Part shown: piece by piece, positions 20,750 through 49,427 of the stretch
Position numbering within the stretch: the stretch's first letter is position 1
How the letters are laid out: every line of letters begins with the position of its first letter
Source of the DNA: Stigmatella ashevillena
GTDB lineage: Bacteria; Myxococcota; Myxococcia; Myxococcales; Myxococcaceae
DNA length: 64,000 nt
Reading direction: 5' to 3'
Assembly (NCBI RefSeq): GCF_028368975.1
Contig: NZ_JAQNDM010000002.1
Location: 5,140,425-5,204,424 of the forward strand
The notes under the pieces: generated by a model
Told to the model about the DNA's origin: nothing
Database searches by the model: none
The model's input: only the letters and a program-made list of their open reading frames with translations
Made by a program: the position numbers and the translations under genes

Positions 20750-22267
20750 ATGGAAGTCGCTTCCCAAGACGCGGTGAATCTGCAGCGAGAGAGAGATCTC
20801 TACCGAAACCTGCTGGAGCTGGGGGGCAAGGACGAGATGGAGCCTCTTCTGGAAGAGGCTCTGGCATTGATCGTCCGCATCACCTCCGCACAGCAAGGGT
20901 ACCTGGAGATCCTCGACAACCGCGGAGAGGGGCGGACCCCCCGGTGGTGGATGGCGCAAGGCTGCTATGACAACGACGTTGAGGCGATTCGAGCCGCCGT
21001 CTCTCGCGGGGTGCTCGGGGCAGCGATCGCTTCGGGTCAGACCATCGTCACGGCCTCAGCCCTCGAGGATCCCCGATTCTCGTCGCGCCGGAGCGTCCAA
21101 CGCAACAAGACAGGGGCCGTGCTGTGCGCCCCCATCAGCCACCCCCCTCTGGGAGTGGTGTACTTGCAAGATCGGTCCGAGCCAGGCCCCTTCACCGAGG
21201 AGGATCGCCAACTGGCCGAGCGGTTCGCGCGGTATCTGGCGAACCTGGCGGACCGGCTGATCTTGCGAAGGGACCGCCACGAGCCGGATCTCACTCGGCC
21301 CTTCCGCCAGAGACTCCGCGCCGAAGGGGTGATCGGTGGGAGTCCCGCGATGGCCAAAGTGCTCGAGCAGGTGTCGGTGGCTGCATCCTGTGACATCGCG
21401 GTGCTGATCACCGGCCCCTCTGGCACTGGAAAGACCCAAGTCGCACGTGTCATCCATGACAACAGCGAGCGCGCCCGGCGGCCTTTCGTGGAGCTGAACT
21501 GCGCAAACCTCCAAGAAACGCTCGCGGAGCGGGAGCTGTTCGGGGCGGTGCGTGGCGCCTTCAGCGGTGCGGACAAGCTGATGAAGGGCAAGATCGACGC
21601 GGCGGAGGGAGGAACGCTCTTCCTCGACGAGATTGGCGAGCTGCCGATGCCCGTGCAGGCCAAGCTGTTGCAGGTCCTCCAGTCCAAACAATACTTCCGC
21701 CTGGGAGACACGAGTCCGCTCGTCGCGAACGTGCGCATCATCGCGGCGACCAACAACGAGCTGAGGGCCGCCGTCGCGAAGAAGACGTTCCGGGAAGATC
21801 TCCTCTACCGGCTCGAGGTTCTCCCGATCCGAATGCCCTCCATGGCCGAACGACGCGAGGACATTCCAGCCCTCGCTGAGTACTTCTGCGCGAGGGCCTG
21901 TGAGGAGCAGAAGCGCCCCAAGCTCCGGCTGTCTCCCGCCGCGCTGCTCGCCATGAAGGCGGTGGAGTGGCCCGGCAACATCCGGGAGCTGGCCAACAAG
22001 ATCGAAGCAGCCGTGGCCCGCGCCGCGAGTCAAGGAGCCCAGCAGGTGGACCGGCGTCACCTCTTCCCGGACGACACCCCGGCGCATGGAAACCCCCGGT
22101 GGCTCAGCTACCACGAGACCACCCGCCGCTTTCAGAAACAGCTCCTGGAAAAGACCCTGGAAGAGACCAACTGGAACACCTCCGAGGCGGCGGAGCGGCT
22201 CGAGCTCTCGCGAGCCCATGTCTACAACCTGATCGCCGGCTTCGGACTCGAGAGGACGAAGCCGTGA
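20750..22267 (+). CDS. Sigma-54 enhancer-binding activator with GAF sensor domain
   Basis: Translation is placed at the ATG at 20750, where the family-like sequence begins; in-frame starts at 20669 and 20615 are possible. The 505 residues comprise a GAF domain (~20-185; a typical late segment is AVLCAPISHPPLGVVYLQD), an AAA+ domain with Walker A GPSGTGKT (~221), the sigma-54 contact loop as GAFSGA instead of GAFTGA (~269), Walker B GGTLFLDEIGEL and FREDLLYRL, and a C-terminal Fis-type helix-turn-helix (TSEAAERLELSRAHVYNLI). It has no receiver domain, so a ligand or partner kinase should control it. The kinase fusion gene follows 42 bases later and three sigma-54 promoters lie nearby. Confidence 0.93.
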   Translation: MEVASQDAVNLQRERDLYRNLLELGGKDEMEPLLEEALALIVRITSAQQGYLEILDNRGEGRTPRWWMAQGCYDNDVEAIRAAVSRGVLGAAIASGQTIVTASALEDPRFSSRRSVQRNKTGAVLCAPISHPPLGVVYLQDRSEPGPFTEEDRQLAERFARYLANLADRLILRRDRHEPDLTRPFRQRLRAEGVIGGSPAMAKVLEQVSVAASCDIAVLITGPSGTGKTQVARVIHDNSERARRPFVELNCANLQETLAERELFGAVRGAFSGADKLMKGKIDAAEGGTLFLDEIGELPMPVQAKLLQVLQSKQYFRLGDTSPLVANVRIIAATNNELRAAVAKKTFREDLLYRLEVLPIRMPSMAERREDIPALAEYFCARACEEQKRPKLRLSPAALLAMKAVEWPGNIRELANKIEAAVARAASQGAQQVDRRHLFPDDTPAHGNPRWLSYHETTRRFQKQLLEKTLEETNWNTSEAAERLELSRAHVYNLIAGFGLERTKP

Positions 22268-26095: not shown

Positions 26096-27073
26096 TCAGG
26101 GGCATGCATCGAACTCGTTCGGACATTTTCCCCCGAGGCTGTTCGCGCTCGAACTCGCGACGCCGAGAAGGCCGACCTTGCCGCTCCAATCCTGTCCCAC
26201 CCCGAGAGAAGGGTCGTCACAGTCCGGCGCAAGGCGAAGTCCGGAGCACCCTGAGTAGCGCGTCCGCCTCAGACACACGAGACCCTTCTCATCCCAGAGA
26301 GACTCGAACGCGTACTCCGGGACCTCCTTTTTCTGGATGTTCCAGCGATCGTACATATCGATCTTCGTATCGCGGCAGGTGAAGGAGCGATCGTCCTTCA
26401 AATAATCGGCCCGGACCGCATGCATACAGGCTCGAAAGAGCTTCTCGAGCGGCTTTCCGGCATCCTCTCCATGAAAGGCGCCAGGCAAGTACCCTCCCTG
26501 AATGCACTTGGCGACGGCGCCCGAGATGCACGAGACCGTGAACGCGGTCTCGCTCGGATTCCAAGTCGTGTTCTGCCAATAGCCGGGAATGAGCATCGCC
26601 TTTCCTTTCAAGTTCTCGAAGTAGGTGCAGCTTGCTCTCCCCTGGGGGCAATTCCGGGCGGTCTCTTCGTCGGTGGGGGTATACGTCTCCGTGGGACAGA
26701 AGTCTCTCAGGCCATCGCGCGTCTTCACGGTGTAGAGATTGACCGTACGGCCCCCCTTGAGCTCGTGTCGGATGCCTGTATCGGTGATCTTCAAAGGGAT
26801 GGTCTTGTCCTGCTCGGTGTATCCCACGTAGTGGCCCGAACGGGCCATGTCTCGTTCCACGCGAACGATGCGCTCGACACACTCCCCTCTGAACAAAGCC
26901 CCCTGGGGCAGGTGATCCTTCCGGGCCGCATCGGCATCGGGGCAGAGCCATTCACGCGGTTGACCTGGAGCAACCTTCTGCTCGCTCCGGCCGGGAAAGT
27001 CCTGCAACCGGGGCTTGCATCCGATGATCAGAACAACGGTGAAGAGCACGGCACGGCAGAAGCCTCGTGACAT
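26096..27073 (-). CDS. ADYC-family-like lipoprotein
   Basis: A signal with lipobox (VLFTVVLIIGC) is followed by ~305 residues rich in Cys. The region RACMHAVRADYLKDDRS followed by TKIDMYDRWNIQ corresponds to the signature of the ADYC domain found in many myxobacterial exported proteins, but the fourth motif residue is Leu (ADYL) in place of Cys. Paired Cys elsewhere (WLCPDAD, GECVERI, NCPQGRASC, VSCISGAVAKC, LVCLRR) suggest disulphides. The start has GGAGG upstream. It is read from its own -24/-12 promoter, divergent from the protease operon, and its stop converges on the kinase fusion with 15 bases between. Confidence 0.75.
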   Translation of the reverse strand: MSRGFCRAVLFTVVLIIGCKPRLQDFPGRSEQKVAPGQPREWLCPDADAARKDHLPQGALFRGECVERIVRVERDMARSGHYVGYTEQDKTIPLKITDTGIRHELKGGRTVNLYTVKTRDGLRDFCPTETYTPTDEETARNCPQGRASCTYFENLKGKAMLIPGYWQNTTWNPSETAFTVSCISGAVAKCIQGGYLPGAFHGEDAGKPLEKLFRACMHAVRADYLKDDRSFTCRDTKIDMYDRWNIQKKEVPEYAFESLWDEKGLVCLRRTRYSGCSGLRLAPDCDDPSLGVGQDWSGKVGLLGVASSSANSLGGKCPNEFDACP

Positions 27074-27275: not shown

Positions 27276-27290
27276 TGGCGCGTCCTTTGC
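27276..27290 (+). promoter_or_regulatory. Sigma-54 promoter of the DUF4403-C11-C14 operon
   Basis: TGGCGCGTCCTTTGC, followed by TTT, has GG and GC exactly ten bases apart and close agreement with TGGCACG-N4-TTGC. The RNA would start near 27302, about 40 bases before the ATG at 27343. Confidence 0.7.
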
Positions 27291-27342
27291 TTTCCTCATG
27301 GATTCGATGAAGACGCCGTGTGCGCCGAACCCGAGGAGAACC

Positions 27343-28761
27343 ATGTTCAAGGGATTGCTCATCAGCATGCTGGTCCAGCTGAGTCCCTCCGATCGGAGGG
27401 AGGCGGCACCGCCTCCTTTTCTCGACCCTCCTCCCGTTCTCCAGGTGCCCGTCTCGTCCCTCTCAGTGCCCATCACACTGGACCTCACAGCGCTTCCAGC
27501 CCTCGTGGAGCAGGAAGTCCCGTCCAGCATCAATGCCATGGGCGCCTGGACGATGGTTGACAATGGCCGGGTCGGCATCAAGTACAAGGCCTCGCGCTCT
27601 CCCTTCTCCTTGTTCGTCGAGGAAAACTCGCTGAAGGCCCGTGCTCAAATCGAGTACGAAGCGACGGGATGTATCAGGAGCAAGATTCCTTTCCTGGGGA
27701 TCGATGTCTGCTCACCTGTCGCCAGTTGTGGGATCCATGAGCCTCGAAGGCAGGCGTACGTGGCTGGAGCGGCCGTCCTCGACTGGTCGCCGGATTGGCA
27801 CCTCACCTCGAAGACCTTCTTCCAGACCGGATTCCCCAATCGTTGCCGTGTGACGTTTTTGAATCATGACATGACGCCCCACATTGATCGGGCCCTCTCG
27901 CGTTACCTCACCCGCGCCGCGGAAAACCTCGACGCCAAGGTGAAAGAAGCCACGACCATGCGGAGCCACGCCGAAAAGCTCTGGCAGGCAGCCTCCTCTC
28001 CCATCGCGCTGCAGCCCTCCACGTGGCTGCAGCTCTCTCCGAAGGAGATCCAAGTGGCCCCCCTGCGCGGGAACGGACTGAGTGTGACCACCGCCGTGGA
28101 GTTGGTCTTCCAGCCGCTGATCACCTTGGGCCCCCGTCCGGAGGCGCTGTCCGCCCCCCTTCCCCCGCTCAAGGTTGGCACATCCGGGAAGGGGGTTCAC
28201 ATCACGCTCGAGGCGAAGCTGGCGTTCGAAGAAGCCACCCGCATCATCGGAGCGACGCTGCCACGAAAGATCACCTTCAAAGGGATGGAGACCGAGATCC
28301 GGAAAGTGGAGGTCTCCGGCAACAAAGGCCACGCGCTCCTCAAGGTCTCGGTCCACATCGCATCTGGATTACCCGAGCCCACCGACGTGACGCTGACGCT
28401 GAATGGCAAACCGCGGTACGACAGCCAGACGGGGATGCTCTCCTTCGATGAACTCGACTATCTCGCCGAGAGTCAGGAAACCATCGTCAAACACCTCGAC
28501 CCGTTCATCCACACCGCCCTGCGCTCCGAGTTGCAGCAACAGTCAAGTTGGCAGGTGGGGCGGCAAGTCGATGCCTATCGACAGGCGCTGGACTCCGCGC
28601 TCAGGGACCTCAAGCTGTCGGAGGGCATCACCCTACGAGGACAGATCAAGGGTCTCAGGCCCCTCGGCATCGTGATGGCCGAGGACGCCTTCGTGGTGGT
28701 CGTCGAGGCCTACGGTGAAGTGGAAGCACTCCTGGCCCTTCCCTTTTCGAGGAATGAGTAG
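27343..28761 (+). CDS. DUF4403 family protein
   Basis: The ATG at 27343 is chosen because GAGGAG lies six bases upstream and just downstream of the sigma-54 promoter; the open frame upstream crosses the promoter. The 472-residue protein shows the DUF4403 pattern (GIKYKASRSPFSLFVEEN, GCIRSKIPFLGIDVC followed by SPVASCG, HIDRALSRYLTRAA, LQLSPKEIQVAPLRG). Members of this family are thought to be exported or envelope lipid-binding-like tubular proteins of unknown role. Only a short, weak hydrophobic stretch is present at the N-terminus (FKGLLISMLVQLS), so export is not certain. It is the first gene of a four-gene operon with two cysteine proteases. Confidence 0.85.
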   Translation: MFKGLLISMLVQLSPSDRREAAPPPFLDPPPVLQVPVSSLSVPITLDLTALPALVEQEVPSSINAMGAWTMVDNGRVGIKYKASRSPFSLFVEENSLKARAQIEYEATGCIRSKIPFLGIDVCSPVASCGIHEPRRQAYVAGAAVLDWSPDWHLTSKTFFQTGFPNRCRVTFLNHDMTPHIDRALSRYLTRAAENLDAKVKEATTMRSHAEKLWQAASSPIALQPSTWLQLSPKEIQVAPLRGNGLSVTTAVELVFQPLITLGPRPEALSAPLPPLKVGTSGKGVHITLEAKLAFEEATRIIGATLPRKITFKGMETEIRKVEVSGNKGHALLKVSVHIASGLPEPTDVTLTLNGKPRYDSQTGMLSFDELDYLAESQETIVKHLDPFIHTALRSELQQQSSWQVGRQVDAYRQALDSALRDLKLSEGITLRGQIKGLRPLGIVMAEDAFVVVVEAYGEVEALLALPFSRNE

Positions 28762-28764
28762 CCC

Positions 28765-29637
28765 ATGCCCTTCTCCATCCAAGATCCGCGCGGCATGGTG
28801 CTCCTCATGCTGGTGTTTCCGGTGCTTTCAGCGGCAGCGATCGAGGGCGCCGAGTTCATCTTCCGGTTCGACAAGCCACTTCCGGTGGCAGATCAGACCG
28901 CGCGGCAGTGGCTTGAACACCGAGCCGCCCAACTGTTCGGGCAAGGCATCTCATACGCCTGGCCTCAGGCGGGCGACTCGATCGTGCTGTCCATCCCACG
29001 CCAGCAGCCTGAGTTCATCGCAGAATCGGGGCAGGCCCTCCGCGTGCGGCTTCGAGAAGGGATCGAGGTGCTCGTCGGAGTCAAGACCCCTCCGTGGATG
29101 CCCCCCAGCGCCTGGAGCCAGCCCGCCGACGGGGGTGTCCGCGTCCACGGCTTCATCAATCTGAAGATGTTCGCGGACGCGGTGGCGCAGCACCTCAAGG
29201 GCTCACGCTTCATCCTCCCCCACGGAGATTCGAGCATGCAGTCCCTCGAACTGCGCACGAGCGGAGACGGGCTCGAAGCGAGCATCCAGCTCTCCGAGCA
29301 GGACGCGAAGCCAGGTGTGCTCATCATGCGCGGAACGCCCCGGTTCGTGGCCGAGAACGGAACCGTCAGCCTGACCGTTCCCGATGCGGAAGTGACCTAC
29401 AATGGCAAGCCGTTCGGGGCCCTCCAAGTCATCCTGCGGACCCAGCGCCTCTGGAAGCTCGATGTGGACATGGCTTCCATCGCGACGAAGGCCGAAGCGT
29501 TCTTCGAGTTTCATACCGGCTCGCTCGCCAAAGCAACCGTGACGCCCTTCCCAGATCTCCAGATCGAGGTGGTCGGCAATCACTTGCTCTTCACGTTCAG
29601 CCTCAACGTCACCCTCACCTACACCTATGCGCCGTGA
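28765..29637 (+). CDS. Exported protein of unknown function in the protease operon
   Basis: Starting three bases after the DUF4403 gene, it has a signal-like N-terminus (MVLLMLVFPVLSAAAIEG) and 290 residues of mainly beta character (EFIFRFDKPLPVAD, LRVRLREGIEVLVGV, GTVSLTVPDAEVTYNGKPFG, final strand LLFTFSLNVTLTYTYAP). It echoes the style of the neighbouring DUF4403 protein (LTLNGKP versus VTYNGKPFG) and may be a distant relative or partner. No catalytic motif or family is recognised. Confidence 0.75.
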   Translation: MPFSIQDPRGMVLLMLVFPVLSAAAIEGAEFIFRFDKPLPVADQTARQWLEHRAAQLFGQGISYAWPQAGDSIVLSIPRQQPEFIAESGQALRVRLREGIEVLVGVKTPPWMPPSAWSQPADGGVRVHGFINLKMFADAVAQHLKGSRFILPHGDSSMQSLELRTSGDGLEASIQLSEQDAKPGVLIMRGTPRFVAENGTVSLTVPDAEVTYNGKPFGALQVILRTQRLWKLDVDMASIATKAEAFFEFHTGSLAKATVTPFPDLQIEVVGNHLLFTFSLNVTLTYTYAP

Positions 29638-29665
29638 ACCGGCTGACACCACGGAGAGGTTCATC

Positions 29666-30973
29666 ATGCAACATGTCCAAACACTGATTGTCATTCTCCT
29701 TCTCGCAGCCTGTAGCCCAGCGCGGGCGAACCCCAGTCCCGCTCTCGCCGATTGGACGATCCTCGTGTTCATGAATGGGGACAACAACCTCGAACCCTGG
29801 GCACTGTCCGACTTCTACGAGATGGCGAGCGTCAAGAGCACGAAAAACGTCAACATCGCTGTGCAACTCGATCGGAACGGGCGATACACAGGGGCTTATA
29901 ACCGGTGGACGGAGACGCGCCGATTCCTCGTGAAGAAGAACCAGCTGCCGTCTCCAGACGCCTCCGTGCAGAACCTCGGTGAGGTGAACATGGGGGACCC
30001 CAAGGCCCTCGAAGACTTCCTCCGCTGGGGAATGCAGACCTACCCTGCGAAGCGTTACGCCCTCATCCTCTGGGATCACGGCCAGGGATACCGAGACATC
30101 TCAGACACAGGCTTCCAAGGAGATTTCTTCAGAAGCGCACGCGGCATGCCTTTCCGATCCGTGTCTCACGACGATACCGACAGGGACCAGCTTTACAATC
30201 AGGAGATCCAGCAGGCCCTGCGCGCGGCACTGGCGGGAAAGAAGCTTGATCTCATCGGCTTTGACGCATGCTTGATGGGCATGCTCGAGACGGCCTACGC
30301 CATGCGGGAGTTCGCGGAGGTCATGGTCGCCAGCGAAGACCTCGAGCCAGGCTTCGGTTGGGCCTACGACAAGTGGGTCGCCGAGCTGGCCGAACGGCCG
30401 GGCGCCTCCTCCGAAGAAGTCGCTCGAATGATCGTGAAGACCTACCCGCAGGCGTACAACCCCTCTGTTCTGCAGCCCGACGAGACGATGACGCTCTCCG
30501 CCATCCGCCTGAGCCAGATCGATCCGCTCGCCGCCGCTGTCTCCACGCTGAGTGACGCCATGCTCCGCTCCCTCGACACGGAGATCGGTGCGATCGAGGC
30601 GGCTCGACACGCATCTCCCGCATTCGCGAGGGATCATCCCAAGAAAGGGGATCAGCGTTTCCATCACGTGGACTTGAAGAAGTTCGCGACGGAGTACCAG
30701 GGCCGCACGAGGAACGAGGACATCCAGAAGTCGCTCGCAGAGGTGATTGCGCGTCACCAGCCAGCAGTCATCGCTTCCTATGCTGGCCCCGTCCGGTTGC
30801 GCGAGGGGGCCAGCGGGCTCGCCATCTACTTCCCTGCGGGAAGAATGGCGTATGCGACGGATGTGCTCGAGGAGCGTGGGTATGAAAAGAGCAATGAAGT
30901 GTATCCCGTGGCCTTCGTCCGAGAGCAGCGCTGGGCAGACTTCCTTCACGCGTACTTCGAGAGGGTTCCATGA
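29666..30973 (+). CDS. Clostripain-family (C11) cysteine protease, lipoprotein
   Basis: Start at the ATG at 29666 with GGAGAGG upstream; it opens a lipoprotein signal (TLIVILLLAAC). The 435-residue chain carries the caspase-clan (CD) dyad in the C11 arrangement: His in ALILWDHGQGY and Cys in LIGFDACLMGM, followed by the family motif MVASEDLEPGFGW. The start WTILVFMNGDNNLEP is also typical. C11 proteases cut after basic residues and often self-process. Lipid anchoring places this one in the envelope. Its stop overlaps the next gene (ATGA), so it is made together with the C14 protease. Confidence 0.92.
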   Translation: MQHVQTLIVILLLAACSPARANPSPALADWTILVFMNGDNNLEPWALSDFYEMASVKSTKNVNIAVQLDRNGRYTGAYNRWTETRRFLVKKNQLPSPDASVQNLGEVNMGDPKALEDFLRWGMQTYPAKRYALILWDHGQGYRDISDTGFQGDFFRSARGMPFRSVSHDDTDRDQLYNQEIQQALRAALAGKKLDLIGFDACLMGMLETAYAMREFAEVMVASEDLEPGFGWAYDKWVAELAERPGASSEEVARMIVKTYPQAYNPSVLQPDETMTLSAIRLSQIDPLAAAVSTLSDAMLRSLDTEIGAIEAARHASPAFARDHPKKGDQRFHHVDLKKFATEYQGRTRNEDIQKSLAEVIARHQPAVIASYAGPVRLREGASGLAIYFPAGRMAYATDVLEERGYEKSNEVYPVAFVREQRWADFLHAYFERVP

Positions 30974-32208
30974 GAAGCATTGACAGCCGCCGCGCCCGGG
31001 AAACACCCGTCGTTGCGCTTGTGGCCTTCTTCCTCGCGTTGGTCGGCGAAGCCCTCGCGGACGAAGAGAAGACGACAGACTCCAAACGCCCCGTACAGAT
31101 CGGGCGCGCCCTCATCGTTGCCAACAGAACGGAGCCGCAAGCGGAATTGGAACAGAATGGCTCCATCCTCGGCGCCCAACTGGTCGCGGCCGCACTGAAC
31201 CAAGTGGGGCTCGCGAGCGTCACGAGCACGACCGACCTCACCGCGAGCGAACTCAGGCGCCTCTTGGTGGAGCGCCAGAAGGCTCCCGCCGAGGACTCCT
31301 GGTCTCTGTTTCACTATGGCGGCCACGCCGTTCATTGGCGTGGGGAGAACTACCTCCTCGCGAGCGATTTCCCCTATGGGGAGAAGGCTCCGAAGGACGA
31401 AGCCGCCATCTCAGCGGCGCTCAAGGCGCACGCGGTCGCACTGAAGGAGGTGATCAGATCAGCCCCCGCGCACTCCCGCCCCAATGTCGTCATCATTGAT
31501 GCGTGCCGCAACAACCCATTTCCTCAAGACGGCGCGCTGGGCAGGTCCTGGTCGAGTGGTCTCGAAGAGGAAGACGAGCCCTTTCCGCACTCGCTGATCG
31601 CCTTTTCCGCTGCGCCCACCCTGGTGGCCTCGGACCCCTGGCAAGCACCTTCCCTCTACACCAGCGCGCTGGCCGGATTGTTAAAGCTGCCAGGTGCCAG
31701 GTTGCTCAGCGTCTTTCCGGAGCTGACCCACATCATGCGGTTCTCGGCCCAGTGGCCTGTTTTCACCTCCTACGTGGGTGCCGAGGACGATGTCCTCTTG
31801 AGAGAGCCCGCCACACTGACCGTCCGGGCCGCCGCGAATGACGATGCCGTCCTGCTCCGGAACGAAAAGCTCGTCGGGATGGCAGGGCAGCAGCAGCCAT
31901 TCTCCGTGGTCCTCGATCCGGGGGAGAATGTCTTTCGGCTGCTCGTCTACAACCAGAAGAGCTTCACCGGGGGCTTCGAGCTGTTCGGAGGGTACCAGCG
32001 CGAAGGTTGGAGCGTGGGGTTGAGCCTCACCGAGCCTGGCCAAGCTGAGCCGTTGGTCAGAATCCATGAATCAGAACCCACTCCCGCAGACGAGTCGCGG
32101 CATGGCCGACTTTTCGATGTCGCGACCTTCGTCATCCACCTGGATCCATGGACGGGGAGGATCACCCAGACAGGAGGGGTGCAGAACCTCTGGCGCGGAA
32201 TTCCATAG
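30970..32208 (+). CDS. Caspase-family (C14, metacaspase-like) protease
   Basis: The 412 residues start with a probable signal peptide (VVALVAFFLALVGEALA). The p20-like domain contains the His of SLFHYGGHAVHW and the Cys of NVVIIDACRNNPF, the classical C14 dyad; the NNPF tail is frequent in bacterial caspase homologues. After ~280 residues a beta-sandwich-like domain follows (LTVRAAANDDAVLLRN, FSVVLDPGENVFRLLVYNQ). Metacaspase relatives cut after Arg/Lys and can act in cell death or immunity; this one is probably exported. It is the last gene of the sigma-54 operon and overlaps the C11 gene by four bases. The 131 bases after its stop hold no gene. Confidence 0.9.
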   Translation: MRSIDSRRARETPVVALVAFFLALVGEALADEEKTTDSKRPVQIGRALIVANRTEPQAELEQNGSILGAQLVAAALNQVGLASVTSTTDLTASELRRLLVERQKAPAEDSWSLFHYGGHAVHWRGENYLLASDFPYGEKAPKDEAAISAALKAHAVALKEVIRSAPAHSRPNVVIIDACRNNPFPQDGALGRSWSSGLEEEDEPFPHSLIAFSAAPTLVASDPWQAPSLYTSALAGLLKLPGARLLSVFPELTHIMRFSAQWPVFTSYVGAEDDVLLREPATLTVRAAANDDAVLLRNEKLVGMAGQQQPFSVVLDPGENVFRLLVYNQKSFTGGFELFGGYQREGWSVGLSLTEPGQAEPLVRIHESEPTPADESRHGRLFDVATFVIHLDPWTGRITQTGGVQNLWRGIP

Positions 32209-32339: not shown

Positions 32340-32810
32340 TCAGACCTCCTCGTCGGGCAGGAGCGTGCGGAGCAGTTCATCGTCAGGGCCGAGAGGGCGC
32401 CAGCCGGGCGGAGGCGGCGTGGCGCGAAGAACTGCCCTCACTCGCTCGGCCTGCGGCTGATGCGTTTCAGGAGTGTAGGCAGACCAACGGACGAGTGCCT
32501 GAGCCACCTCAAAGCGATTTGCGTCGTCCATCACCGCAGGCCAGCCGCCAGGAAGACCTTCAGACAGCTCGCGCACGAGGATATCTCGTACAAAGCGCGT
32601 GACCTGGCGGCGCTGCTCTGCTTCGGCGTGCAACCCGCCTAACAGTTGCACTGCAGCAATATCATCGTCGCCAAGCTCCTCGGCCAATTGGTAGAGCGGA
32701 ATGGCAGGACGCGCCGCAGCAAAGGCGGTGAGCGAATCGTAGCCTCGCGCACGAACCCGCTCATACAGACGAACCCGCCAGTTGCCCTGCCAGGGATGTC
32801 TGGAGGTCAT
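32340..32810 (-). CDS. Second putative immunity protein, paralogue of the 32991 gene
   Basis: The 156-residue protein aligns along its whole length with the next gene upstream: both have GNWRVRLYERVRxRGY-type starts, PLYxLAEELG, LVRE(L/F)SE.L.GGWP, FTPETH-type segments and the same C-terminus PPPGWRPLGPDDELLRTLLPDEEV (partly PPGW...). It is cytosolic with no signal. The position, second after a DUF2380 toxin, indicates an immunity duplicate that has diverged, perhaps to cover a variant toxin. The family name is not known to me. The start ATG at 32810 has GGAGG-like bases (GGAGGGG) upstream. Confidence 0.75.
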   Translation of the reverse strand: MTSRHPWQGNWRVRLYERVRARGYDSLTAFAAARPAIPLYQLAEELGDDDIAAVQLLGGLHAEAEQRRQVTRFVRDILVRELSEGLPGGWPAVMDDANRFEVAQALVRWSAYTPETHQPQAERVRAVLRATPPPPGWRPLGPDDELLRTLLPDEEV

Positions 32811-32990
32811 CGCCCCTCCATCGAATAAAACTCCTTCGTGTCACTGGGCTTGCCCCAATTGAGTGGACAGCAGGCTCAAGCTGCCAACGTATCAGGTAGG
32901 GTGGCTTTCTCAAAATCCACGGGGCTTTCAGTCGCGCGACAAGAGGCTTGGAGACAATCTCGGAAGGAGCGCCGCAGCACTTCCCCGCTT

Positions 32991-33461
32991 TCAGACTTCC
33001 TCATCGGGCAGAAGCGTTCGGAGCAGTTCATCGTCGGGACCGAGCGGGCGCCAACCAGGCGGTGGGGACGTGGCGAGGAGCGTTGCCGTGACCTGTCTGG
33101 CACGCGCCTTGTGCGTTTCTGGAGTAAAGCCAATCCAGGAAGCAAATGTTTCGGCGACGGCAAAGCGAGATTCGTCATCCAACACGCCCGGCCAGCCGCC
33201 GGAGAGGCTCTCTGAGAACTCGCGTACGAGCTGTCCTCGTACCAAGCGCGTCACTTGGTGGTTCCGCTCTGCCTCGTCCACCAAGCCGCTTAACAACTGC
33301 ACCGCATTGAGGTCACCCCCGCCCAGTTCCTCCGCCAACGCGTAGAGGGGCATGGCAGGGCGGGCCTCAGCGAAGGCAGTGAGCGAAGCATAACCGCGCT
33401 CGCGCACCCTCTCATACAAACGGACCGTCCAATTGCCACGCCAGGAACGTCCCCCATTCAT
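32991..33461 (-). CDS. Putative immunity protein of the DUF2380 toxin
   Basis: This 156-residue soluble protein starts inside the toxin stop (ATGA, 33458-33461), the usual coupling of a toxin with its antidote. The sequence is largely helical (LTAFAEARPAMPLYALAEELG, LSGLVDEAERNHQVTRLV). It is not assigned to a named family here; the role is inferred from position and from the presence of a tandem paralogue just downstream. The 180 bases between the two copies contain no gene; part of it near 32960-32990 resembles the flank after the second copy, consistent with a segmental duplication. Confidence 0.75.
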   Translation of the reverse strand: MNGGRSWRGNWTVRLYERVRERGYASLTAFAEARPAMPLYALAEELGGGDLNAVQLLSGLVDEAERNHQVTRLVRGQLVREFSESLSGGWPGVLDDESRFAVAETFASWIGFTPETHKARARQVTATLLATSPPPGWRPLGPDDELLRTLLPDEEV

Positions 33462-34885
33462 CGCGCGCTTCCTGAAGTGAAGTTCATGGGGATGTCATAA
33501 CTTCTCATGGATCTCGCGACAATCTTCAGGATTTGATCCCGCGTCAACTTCCGGCCAGCAACCGTCTCGGCGTCGCGCAGGACGCTCATGAGCATCCGAT
33601 TCCATTCTTTGGGCCATGTGCGGCCCAAGCGCCAGTTTCCACCACCGTGAATTGCTTGGTGGTGCGCCATCTCCAACTCGACGCAGAACTGGTCAATGCT
33701 CATGGCTCCAGTGAAGCCACGCTTCTCGAACCACTCGCGGTGCTCCGCAGGCAGGACATGATGTCGTGGCCGTTCGGCCATGCCTGCCCCTGCTTTGCCA
33801 GTCTCATGCATGGCACGAACCTCTGGGCCGTCGCCGAGCGCTTCGCGCACTCCCTGCGGCAAGTCCTGGCCCGCTTGCGCCATCATCACCTGGCCCGCCT
33901 GGATGCGCACCGCAGCGCTGACGGCTGTCACGGAGAGGATGCCCGCCTGGACGAGCCGACGCATCCTCTCCACCCACTCGGCAGTGACAACAAGCTGCGA
34001 GCCCATCATCACCCCGTTGGACCCCATCGTCAGGCGCACGCCAAGCGTGGCGGGAGCAGCGGGTGGCAGCCGCGGCAGCGACATCTTCAATCCCGACATC
34101 AGGGTGAGCATCTCAACGAGCTGGGCTGCGGCCATGATCTGCCCCCCGCGCTCCATGGCTATACGCGCAGCCTCACGGATGGCATGGAAATCGCGGGTGA
34201 GTTGGCCCATCCGTTCGGGCATCGCGACGGCTGCTGACTCGGCGCTCCTCGGCTCCAGAGACGCGAGCGCCGTCATGGAGGGAGCCATCCTCTGCTGCAC
34301 GTGGTTCATGTCCGCCAAGAGCCTCTCGGCGCTGTAGAGCGGGCACTGCCTGAGCACAACGCCAGCGAGATTCAGGAAATCGAGCCATGCGGCGAGCAGG
34401 GTGATCCCGGACATGGCGGCCTGGAGCCGCAAGCCACTCATGCGGAGAATGCCCAGTTCCATGTCCAGGTCCTCTGCCTCCGAAGCAGCCTCCGCAAGCG
34501 TGGCAGCCTCCCCGAGGGCATCGTGAATCCATTGCAGTTGTTCGGTGCCATAGCCGATGGAACGGGTAAACGCGCCGTTGGCCCTGCCTCCGAGGCCTTC
34601 CTTCCCAGCGGAGAGTTGGCGAAGCGAGGCAGCGATACCGCCCGTGGAACGTTTCGCACCAGAGATGGCTTCGAGCAATGCCTGCCGGGCCTGCGTCACG
34701 CTCTGATGCGCTGAGGCCGAAACGGCTGGAATCGCAGTCTTCTGGGCAGAGAACGCTCGTCCCTCTCTCCCAGCCGTCTGTCTGTAGTGACTGGAGGACT
34801 CCGCGCGTCCCCCAGGGCGTCCTCCTCCCACCGCACAGCCTGTGAGCAGCGCTGCAACACACCCCAACGCGACGGTCAGCTTCAT
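33458..34885 (-). CDS. DUF2380-type (TIGR02269) lipoprotein toxin with HNH-like C-terminus
   Basis: The 475-residue protein begins with a lipobox signal (LGCVAALLTGC). The middle is long, helical and Met/Ala-rich (RLTMGSNGVMMGSQLVV). The last ~110 residues hold His-rich motifs of a GHH/AHH-type nuclease: RHHVLPAEHREWFEKRGF, ELEMAHHQAIHGGGNW and WPKEWNRML. This is the arrangement of the myxobacterial DUF2380/TIGR02269 paralogous family, which I take to be a surface-delivered nuclease toxin (family inference). It is coupled to two putative immunity genes. A neighbouring secretion gene is not visible. Confidence 0.82.
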   Translation of the reverse strand: MKLTVALGCVAALLTGCAVGGGRPGGRAESSSHYRQTAGREGRAFSAQKTAIPAVSASAHQSVTQARQALLEAISGAKRSTGGIAASLRQLSAGKEGLGGRANGAFTRSIGYGTEQLQWIHDALGEAATLAEAASEAEDLDMELGILRMSGLRLQAAMSGITLLAAWLDFLNLAGVVLRQCPLYSAERLLADMNHVQQRMAPSMTALASLEPRSAESAAVAMPERMGQLTRDFHAIREAARIAMERGGQIMAAAQLVEMLTLMSGLKMSLPRLPPAAPATLGVRLTMGSNGVMMGSQLVVTAEWVERMRRLVQAGILSVTAVSAAVRIQAGQVMMAQAGQDLPQGVREALGDGPEVRAMHETGKAGAGMAERPRHHVLPAEHREWFEKRGFTGAMSIDQFCVELEMAHHQAIHGGGNWRLGRTWPKEWNRMLMSVLRDAETVAGRKLTRDQILKIVARSMRSYDIPMNFTSGSAR

Positions 34886-47912: not shown

Positions 47913-48066
47913 ATTCAAGACTGCATGGGCACATCAAAAAAAGGGAACCTTCACGTTTCCGCAAGGCATTTTCGCTTGTCGCCTATCACGTTCATTCCTG
48001 GTCCGCGATAGCCCCAGCCAACATCACGAGCAAAGCCCTTGCTTGATTCGGGCATATTCCTGCCAA

Positions 48067-48540
48067 TCAGGACTGTACCATTACTCTCTCTGGATGTTCG
48101 ATCGGGAAGCTCCACCTGTGACCATACGTCGACACCACAACCACCTCACCGTTAACAACCTTAATTTCCTCAAAGGGATTAGAGCAATCAAAGAAAGCCG
48201 CCCATACAAGTCGATCATCAGAAATCCGCACGGCAGCAACATAACCATCACTTCCCATACTGCCCTCACCACAGCTCAGCCTAATATTTCCCTCCGCCCA
48301 TGAGTACGAGGCCAGTTCAGTGATAAACGCCCAGAGGTTCTCATTGAACTCCAAAGCGGATCTCAGGGTACTACGAGCCAATGGCCGGACCCGCACTTGC
48401 GCACCACGCTCATGCATCAAGAGAACACACTCCATGAGAATCAGTTCTCCATCGGAGAACAACACCCCATTCACACCAGGACAGAGCTCGTCCTTCCATT
48501 TCTCCTGGATGAGATTTTCCACTGAACCGTTTTCACTCAT
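48067..48540 (-). CDS. Putative immunity protein of the Rhs toxin tip
   Basis: The ATG at 48540 overlaps the Rhs stop (ATGA at 48537-48540), as is normal for a toxin-immunity pair. The ~157-residue soluble protein is acidic and AT-rich in coding compared with the rest of the window, a sign of horizontal transfer. The sequence (VLLMHERGAQVRVRPLARS, LSCGEGSMGSDGYVAAVRISD) is not a family I recognise. The role is inferred from position. Confidence 0.65.
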   Translation of the reverse strand: MSENGSVENLIQEKWKDELCPGVNGVLFSDGELILMECVLLMHERGAQVRVRPLARSTLRSALEFNENLWAFITELASYSWAEGNIRLSCGEGSMGSDGYVAAVRISDDRLVWAAFFDCSNPFEEIKVVNGEVVVVSTYGHRWSFPIEHPERVMVQS

Positions 48541-49427
48541 TTTTTGCATCCGCTCCTGATGATTTGAGGCCGTTCCTTGATACCTTGCCTCGGCACCACT
48601 CCACCTGCCTCAATGTTTCTACGATCATTCCGTCTCTGCCAGAAAGCCTTCTCCCAGGTCTTTTTCGATTCAGGCATGACTTCATTCAATTTTACGACCT
48701 CGACAGGCACTGTCTTCAACCCAGCAACCTGAGCCGCGAGCAATCTTCGATTATCATAACTCACATACTGGCCATCAACATCCATGACTCGCAATGGACC
48801 AGACCTATCCCAATTCCAATTATTACTGCTCATCTTTCCAGCATAGTCGTTTTCGGCAACTGTCCGCTGCGAGAAGTTGATCAGCCGAGGATCCACATCC
48901 ATCAGACCCAGCGGATCAATCGTCACCAGAGGATTTTCTGGATATGCATAGGAGAGCATCCCGCCAAGCAGTCCGATGGGATCCTGACTGATGTAGCGCC
49001 CAGCATACGCGTCGTAGTAGCGGAAACGGTTGTAGAGGAGTCCCGTCTCCTCGTCCTCGTACTGTCCCGGCCAACGCCAGGGGCAGTGATGGAGGGTGAC
49101 ATCGGCTTTGCCCACGCCGAAGGCATCCAGTTGCATCCGCCAAGCGAGCTGCCCCAACTCGTCGTACATCTCCGTGGGAGCCCCCAGGTGGTCCGTCACC
49201 ACGGCATAGCGCCCGGTGGCGTCCTCCCGGGCCAGCGGTGAGAAACTCTCCGGTTCGAACAGCCAGGTAGTGAGGCCCTCGGAGGAGGCCACCTCGTGCA
49301 GCGGCACGTGCCCATCCCACACGAAGCGCACCTCGCGCAGGGTGGGAGGTTGGCCTTTTGGCTCCGTGCCCATGACCGCCTTCCGCGTGCGTCTGGCCAG
49401 TGCGTCGTAGGCCAGATGTACGTGCAC
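48537..49427 (-). pseudogene. Orphan Rhs C-terminal tip with a ParB-like toxin domain
   Basis: The first ~180 residues are the end of an Rhs core (VHLAYDALARRTRK, TTWLFEPESFSPLARE, YAVVTDHLGAPTEMYDELGQL, NRFRYYDAYAGRYISQDPIGLLGG). The variable tip then reads NFSQRTVAENDYAGKM ... PLRVMDVDGQYVSYDNRRLLAAQVAG ... IPVEVVK-like (TVPVEVVKL), a pattern resembling ParB/SNRR-type folds in which DNRR is conserved. Everything upstream of ~49430 in the Rhs is missing; the DNA joins a TPR gene in another frame. A GTG at 49427 might still permit translation, but no ribosome site is obvious. The toxin end is intact and has its immunity gene. Confidence 0.75.

Follow-up and report, generated by a model that had tools for sequence, protein, structure and literature searches.

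Bacterial caspase-fold proteases are mostly discussed as intracellular effectors of death or defence. The stretch of 64,000 nucleotides of Stigmatella ashevillena analysed here (contig NZ_JAQNDM010000002.1, positions 5,140,425 to 5,204,424; hereafter the window) carries a gene for a clostripain-family (C11) peptidase that overlaps a gene for a caspase-domain (C14) peptidase. This pair was found at the end of a block of seven genes common to three genomes, encoding a transcription regulator, a kinase-nSTAND1-FGE protein, an ADYC-domain protein, a DUF4403 protein, a short DUF4403-like protein and the two peptidases; a preliminary description of the pair had left the block out. The occurrence of two exported-type proteases in a kinase-linked block suggests a cell-surface protease system that can be switched, and the pair is read here, with a probability of about 0.5, as the tail of a signal-induced extracytoplasmic protease-TULIP operon in which the C11 peptidase would activate itself and cut after basic residues.

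Family C11 (MEROPS clan CD) includes clostripain and PmC11. Passages of PMC4850288 describe self-cleavage of PmC11 at Lys147 and cleavage of clostripain at Arg181 and Arg190, which removes a nonapeptide, while Asp177 of PmC11, two residues before Cys179 (replaced in the C179A mutant), is thought to set the preference for a basic residue at P1. Metacaspases are said to cleave after Arg or Lys (sections of PMC4357240). A 2012 survey of metacaspases (PMC3501461, in excerpt) describes C14 proteins whose single N-terminal helix may be a signal peptide, includes some with extracellular or membrane features, finds proteolysis domains in 23 metacaspase operons and mentions fusions to FGE domains; the word clostripain is absent from its main text. 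Kinase, nSTAND1 and FGE domains near a caspase-fold protease are also known from the FGS/nSTAND1/kinase/caspase conflict systems (parts of PMC8195603, PMC7159879 and PMC10907252), one described subsystem of which works at the membrane. DUF4403 proteins are predicted to belong to the TULIP group as BPI-like pseudo-dimers (excerpts of PMC6791001), in a paper whose main text contains neither peptidase nor operon. No paper on the C11-C14 pair, the block or the ADYC domain was found in searches of the open-licence PMC literature, and the main text of a survey of Myxococcaceae signalling (PMC7694542) contains none of the terms ADYC, formylglycine and caspase.

The C11 open reading frame occupies positions 29627-30973 of the forward strand (Table 1). 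ATG 29666 is the preferred start because GGAGAGG lies six bases upstream and a start at ATG 29627, from which residues are numbered here, would overlap the preceding gene by 11 nt. The product matches Pfam Peptidase_C11 over positions 1-356 of 359 of the model (E = 1.3e-56; 193.1 bits against a cut-off of 25.8), and the dyad His151/Cys215 lies in the motifs WDHGQGY and FDACLMGM, with an Asp two residues before the Cys as in clostripain and PmC11. Its score against the NCBIfam clostripain equivalog TIGR02806 was 94.1 bits, far under the cut-off of 550, so that the protein is a member of the family and not clostripain itself; unlike clostripain and PmC11 it also has an overlapping caspase-domain partner gene. 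The partner matches Pfam Peptidase_C14 (E = 4.7e-14; 53.1 bits against 21.4) and, as in prokaryotic metacaspase-like proteins, its caspase domain has a His/Cys dyad (His119/Cys179 in YGGHAVHW and IDACRNNPF). Both dyads are invariant in the three C11 and the three C14 proteins, which bears out the family assignments of the preliminary description. Unlike the described metacaspase-like proteins, the three C14 proteins share an extra C-terminal region, at about residues 280-412 and with the motifs GG..GW..GL and RHG, that has no sequence match in Pfam or the PDB; the full-length C14 protein had no PDB match by sequence either, and the five proteins tested had none in PHROGs. The start codon of C14 is preceded at four bases by GAGAGGG, resembling a ribosome-binding site, inside the end of C11. 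The four-base overlap reported earlier was found as described, and recurs in the two other genomes. As a feature in itself it was rejected as remarkable, since ATGA overlaps were counted at 19 of 266 gene ends called crudely in 21 stretches. Such coupling favours co-synthesis and sets no ratio, and the fixed stoichiometry proposed earlier was not established.

The two families were searched for in 145 genomes of the order, with at most 11 or 12 candidates scored in each. The genome of the window (G000, 11 Mb) contains one C11 and four C14 matches. C11 matches occur in 22 of the 145 genomes and C14 matches in five, at full or near-full length in three: G000, Corallococcus llansteffanensis (G062, one of the Corallococcus relatives in the sample) and G112. 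A three-row C14 profile matched 8 of the 195 genomes in the phylum, covering the whole model in the same three only. In G062 (locus L037) and G112 (locus L049) the C14 gene stands directly behind C11, in the same order; identity to the window protein is 67% and 46%, respectively, for C11 and 64% and 28% for C14. For a control, the 22 genomes with C11 were scanned for PF00656, and 19 of them gave C14 matches, 112 in total, beside 50 C11 matches, some of which are pieces of one gene. The only adjacent C11-C14 genes were the three block pairs, the next closest pair on one contig being about 8.2 kb apart (G094:C87), a count to be read with the fact that several assemblies consist of hundreds of contigs. 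No relative of the window C14 was found in the 11 other loci of a contig scan (12 loci with L037) or in 14 C11 neighbourhoods (L052-L065), and distant C14 relatives in G060, G096, G135, G160 and G184 had no C11 relative in the stretch examined (5.5 kb in G184, 6.0 kb in G135). As far as seen, C11-C14 adjacency is a property of the block and is not usual for these families at large. The conserved adjacency that the preliminary description had proposed to look for was found in 3 of the 145 genomes, and the pairing itself is confirmed and strengthened.

The other block members are conserved with the pair. Identity to the counterparts in G062 and G112 is 81% and 57% for the regulator, and 71.6% and 50.8% for the kinase. 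Like the described DUF4403 TULIP proteins, the first DUF4403 protein (P0001) matches the model over nearly its whole length (232.3 bits against a cut-off of 28.3), and the short protein resembles the C-terminal half of DUF4403 (profile comparison, 93% probability), scoring under the cut-off in the window (17.6) and G062 (16.4) and above it in G112 (57.1; E = 1.7e-15). A third protein of this kind is present in C. llansteffanensis, where a DUF4403-related gene (L088, 7903-9510, forward strand) lies divergent from the block regulator. G112 has an inverted DUF4403 gene, and its short DUF4403 gene lies behind C14, overlapping it if started at ATG L049:11112. That the seven genes are kept together in three genomes despite this rearrangement counts for a functional unit. 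Outside the block the three loci share domain-level hits only, between paralogous kinases and regulators. The ratios of nonsynonymous to synonymous substitution (dN/dS) between the window and G062, rough values from a simple Nei-Gojobori count at dS 0.8-1.6, were 0.15 (regulator), 0.26 (kinase), 0.23 (ADYC), 0.33 (DUF4403), 0.45 (short DUF4403), 0.14 (C11, the lowest of the seven) and 0.24 (C14), which suggests purifying selection on all seven genes between these two genomes.

The G+C content is 60-64% at 26-34 kb, which holds the cargo end of the block, against 66-70% at 21-26 kb, where the regulator and kinase genes lie; the former value is also below most of the window, and an unrelated stretch just behind is equally low. 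If the genes had simply travelled together on a mobile stretch and shared no function, the lower G+C content and the patchy spread (3 of 145) would fit, but the content kept under a changed order in G112 and the purifying selection on every gene make this account highly improbable. A second account takes the pair for secreted proteases of an ordinary digestive kind, produced jointly by a predator but acting independently, with the TULIP proteins as envelope housekeeping. Probable export of both enzymes, the scatter of C11 over 22 of 145 genomes and the frequency of ATGA overlaps (19 of 266) agree with it; it is considered somewhat unlikely in view of a pairing that recurs in three divergent genomes, is unseen elsewhere in the C11-bearing genomes, and is accompanied by the retention of the whole sensor-regulator-TULIP block.

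Export was judged solely from a lipobox-type pattern of our own and a hydropathy scan. The scan gave a signal-type hydrophobic N-terminus in all three C11, all three C14 and all three short DUF4403 proteins, and both proteases are probably exported. A lipobox-like Cys was present in two of the three C11 proteins (window and G112), a further difference from clostripain and PmC11; the lipoprotein status of C11 given in the preliminary description is therefore not conserved, whereas the export of both proteins that it proposed is probable. The ADYC protein has a lipobox-like Cys by pattern in the window (Cys19) and in G062, and in G112 the motif SIAC, missed by the pattern, was recognised by eye. 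The kinase protein has one hydrophobic segment near residues 729-752 with arginines ahead of it, and by the positive-inside rule its kinase and STAND domains are predicted to be cytoplasmic and its FGE domain, of the C-type lectin fold, to lie outside.

Conflict systems are described with kinase, nSTAND1, FGS and caspase domains among their listed components (PMC8195603 and PMC7159879, in part), and metacaspase-FGE fusions number 33 sequences in the excerpted survey PMC3501461; the block could on these grounds be an anti-phage or programmed-death system of the kind found in multicellular bacteria. Among the PADLOC models, those for the PD-T4-6 kinase hit the kinase domain (best E = 9.8e-76) and one for a caspase hits C14 (E = 2.1e-4), but the PD-T4-6 matches are limited to the common kinase domain. 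No effector-associated or death-like adaptor domain was present among the Pfam hits of window proteins P0001-P0008 at E <= 0.1, Pfam being a database that holds models of such domains. In contrast to the conflict systems, the caspase-domain protein is unfused and is accompanied by a transcription regulator and lipid-binding-type proteins; the signal-type N-terminus of the three C14 proteins, seen by hydropathy only, also departs from a caspase effector kept inside the cell. An anti-phage or programmed-death system is on balance quite unlikely.

Evidence for self-activation comes from the comparison with clostripain. In the HMMER alignment Arg181 of clostripain corresponds to Arg156 of the window C11, and Arg190 is set against Arg172 beside a gap; on our own re-reading of the gap, RAICWDD against R177-SVSHDD was judged the better fit, which pairs Arg190 with Arg177. 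All three C11 proteins have Arg156 and Arg177, but Arg172 varies. Since Arg is kept in three genomes at both positions aligned with the self-cleavage sites of clostripain, C11 probably matures itself. The sequence Asp-Ala-Cys occurs in all three C14 proteins, placing Asp177 two residues before Cys179, and a preference of C14 for basic residues is likewise probable.

The preliminary description had gone further and proposed a zymogen cascade in which one protease activates the other, an arrangement that could also hold inside the operon reading: C11 would activate itself and cut the C14 linker at a basic residue, or the reverse. The overlap and the loop arginines of C11 are conserved, the C14 linker contains a basic residue in each genome, and among metacaspases some of type II depend on a conserved basic cleavage site, although those of type I need no processing (PMC4357240, in part). 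A cut by C11 in this linker is chemically plausible, and C11 acting on C14 would be the likelier direction if a cascade exists. The basic linker residue is not at one conserved position, however, and past the one adjacent to the Cys no linker Arg or Lys is position-conserved in all three C14 proteins. Between the start of the mature proteins and their catalytic domains lie a few to about 25 residues, so neither protease has a sizeable prodomain. A cascade was thus not established and is considered unlikely, and the earlier interpretation as a whole is partly supported. A bolder variant, an 'inside-out' pathway of death or killing, is very unlikely as a whole; in it a transmembrane sensor of kinase, STAND and lectin-fold domains, components that apoptosis-like systems employ within cells, would drive a two-step clan CD cascade outside the cytoplasm, C11 activating C14, with the BPI-like TULIP proteins as targets or helpers, so that the envelope of the cell itself, a rival or prey becomes permeable. 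With its conserved overlapping pair, export-type N-termini, BPI-like proteins and kinase-STAND-lectin-fold sensor, the block is a compact unit in which to ask whether two clan CD families form a cascade and what they do at the bacterial surface.

The sensor part of the block has a wider distribution. Relatives of the C-terminal part of the kinase occur in at least 72 of the 145 genomes (E <= 1e-20) and relatives of ADYC in at least 71 (E <= 1e-5), in both cases often several per genome. Twenty further loci (L101-L120) form a biased sample, having been chosen for kinase and/or ADYC relatives. A long kinase-FGE protein is encoded beside the ADYC gene or one gene away in 18 of them, and a relative of the window regulator is present in nine (eight of those 18); none of the 20 has a gene whose best match among the seven window proteins is DUF4403, C11 or C14 (crude genes of at least 100 aa, E <= 1e-4). 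A gene for about 310 aa lies between kinase and ADYC in L103, L110, L114 and L116, and the L103 product, the one tested, has a sigma-70 region 4. Kinase-nSTAND1-FGE and ADYC pairs thus recur in Myxococcaceae as a modular signalling cassette, beside a related regulator or, in L103, the sigma-70 region-4 protein. In the genome of the window itself a locus at 5.58 Mb lacks the proteases; its regulator and kinase cluster with those of the block (kinase clade 100/99). The modular sensor thus appears to have the proteases and TULIP proteins as one of its outputs.

According to the preferred reading, the inner-membrane kinase-nSTAND1-FGE protein, probably together with the ADYC lipoprotein, would sense something outside the cytoplasm, and the signal would act through the adjacent regulator to turn on four genes, those for the two TULIP-type lipid-binding proteins, C11 and C14, whose products would be made for use outside the cytoplasm. 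C11 would cut its own loop at the conserved arginines and then cleave after basic residues, and the two proteases may jointly attack envelope proteins, whether the cell's own or those of kin or prey, the target being a guess. Gene content, the overlap, joint conservation in three genomes, intact catalytic residues and purifying selection were observed directly, and export, membrane topology, regulation, self-processing and specificity are inferences from them and from sequence features. A Sigma54_activat domain was found in the regulators of the window and G112, and the GAFTGA-type loop reads GAFSGA in the window and G062. Elements of the -24/-12 type, agreeing at 10 or 11 of 12 consensus positions in a post hoc scan, were found in all three genomes ahead of every one of the four cargo start sites, compared with 18 of the 266 control starts; those of the window (11/12) and G062 (10/12) lie 67 and 60 nt ahead of the start, in the same alignment block. 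Control by sigma-54 is likely for the window and not for the family, because the regulators of G112 and of the protease-free type lack GAFTGA. The loop is replaced by GAHSTA in the regulators of L049 (502-2058) and L101 (4826-6397).

Several observations weigh against this reading. On the side of regulation, GAHSTA stands in place of GAFTGA or GAFSGA in a block regulator, that of G112, as in regulators of the protease-free type; a 10-of-12 element also lies ahead of the divergent ADYC gene of the window, none was found by the scan upstream of the window regulator, and the scan was post hoc. The long DUF4403 protein has a clear hydrophobic start in G112 only and not in the window copy, and the short DUF4403 protein of G112 resembles that of the window weakly (25% identity, E = 2e-4). 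Structure predictions from two-row alignments (window and L037) reached a mean predicted local distance difference test score of 38.2 for C14 and 46.6 for the short DUF4403 protein. The block was found in only three genomes and its kinase, ADYC and regulator part occurs without proteases. The trees disagree on the block regulators as one clade: the three block kinases are joined weakly (81/85), and the regulator of G112 is grouped with the protease-free type (98/97).

Table 1 Features of the seven-gene block in the window.
Feature	Position	Strand	Basis or remark
Enhancer-binding-protein-type regulator (GAF, Sigma54_activat AAA+, Fis helix-turn-helix; GAFSGA)	20750..22267	+	Start from crude caller; frame open from 20549
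Ser/Thr kinase-nSTAND1-FGE-sulfatase protein, one hydrophobic segment	22310..26080	+	Pfam, hydropathy
ADYC-domain protein, lipobox-like Cys19	26096..27073	-	Pfam, block partners
Sigma-54-like -24/-12 element, 11/12 consensus	27276..27291	+	Begins 67 nt ahead of DUF4403 start
DUF4403 protein (P0001)	27343..28761	+	Pfam E = 1.1e-68; start set by G062 comparison
Short DUF4403-like protein, hydrophobic N-terminus	28765..29637	+	Pfam E = 0.0016, under cut-off; profile comparison
C11 (clostripain-family) peptidase	29666..30973	+	Pfam Peptidase_C11, dyad; GGAGAGG ahead of the start
C11 dyad codon, His	30077-30079	+	
C11 conserved loop Arg codons	30092-30094 and 30155-30157	+	
C11 dyad codon, Cys	30269-30271	+	
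ATGA stop/start overlap	30970..30973	+	Also in G062 (L037) and G112 (L049)
C14 (caspase-domain) peptidase	30970..32208	+	Signal-type N-terminus
C14 His codon	31324-31326	+	
C14 Cys codon	31504-31506	+	

Two further features of the window lie behind the block. The reverse strand at 32340-34885 carries a lipoprotein gene with a match under the cut-off to DUF2380/TIGR02269 (SitA6-type polymorphic toxin). After it come two genes of 156 aa each, related to one another (66% identity over 92 residues), which are perhaps immunity genes. The lowest G+C content of any 1-kb bin (50.6%) is at 48001-49000, together with a strong negative GC skew.

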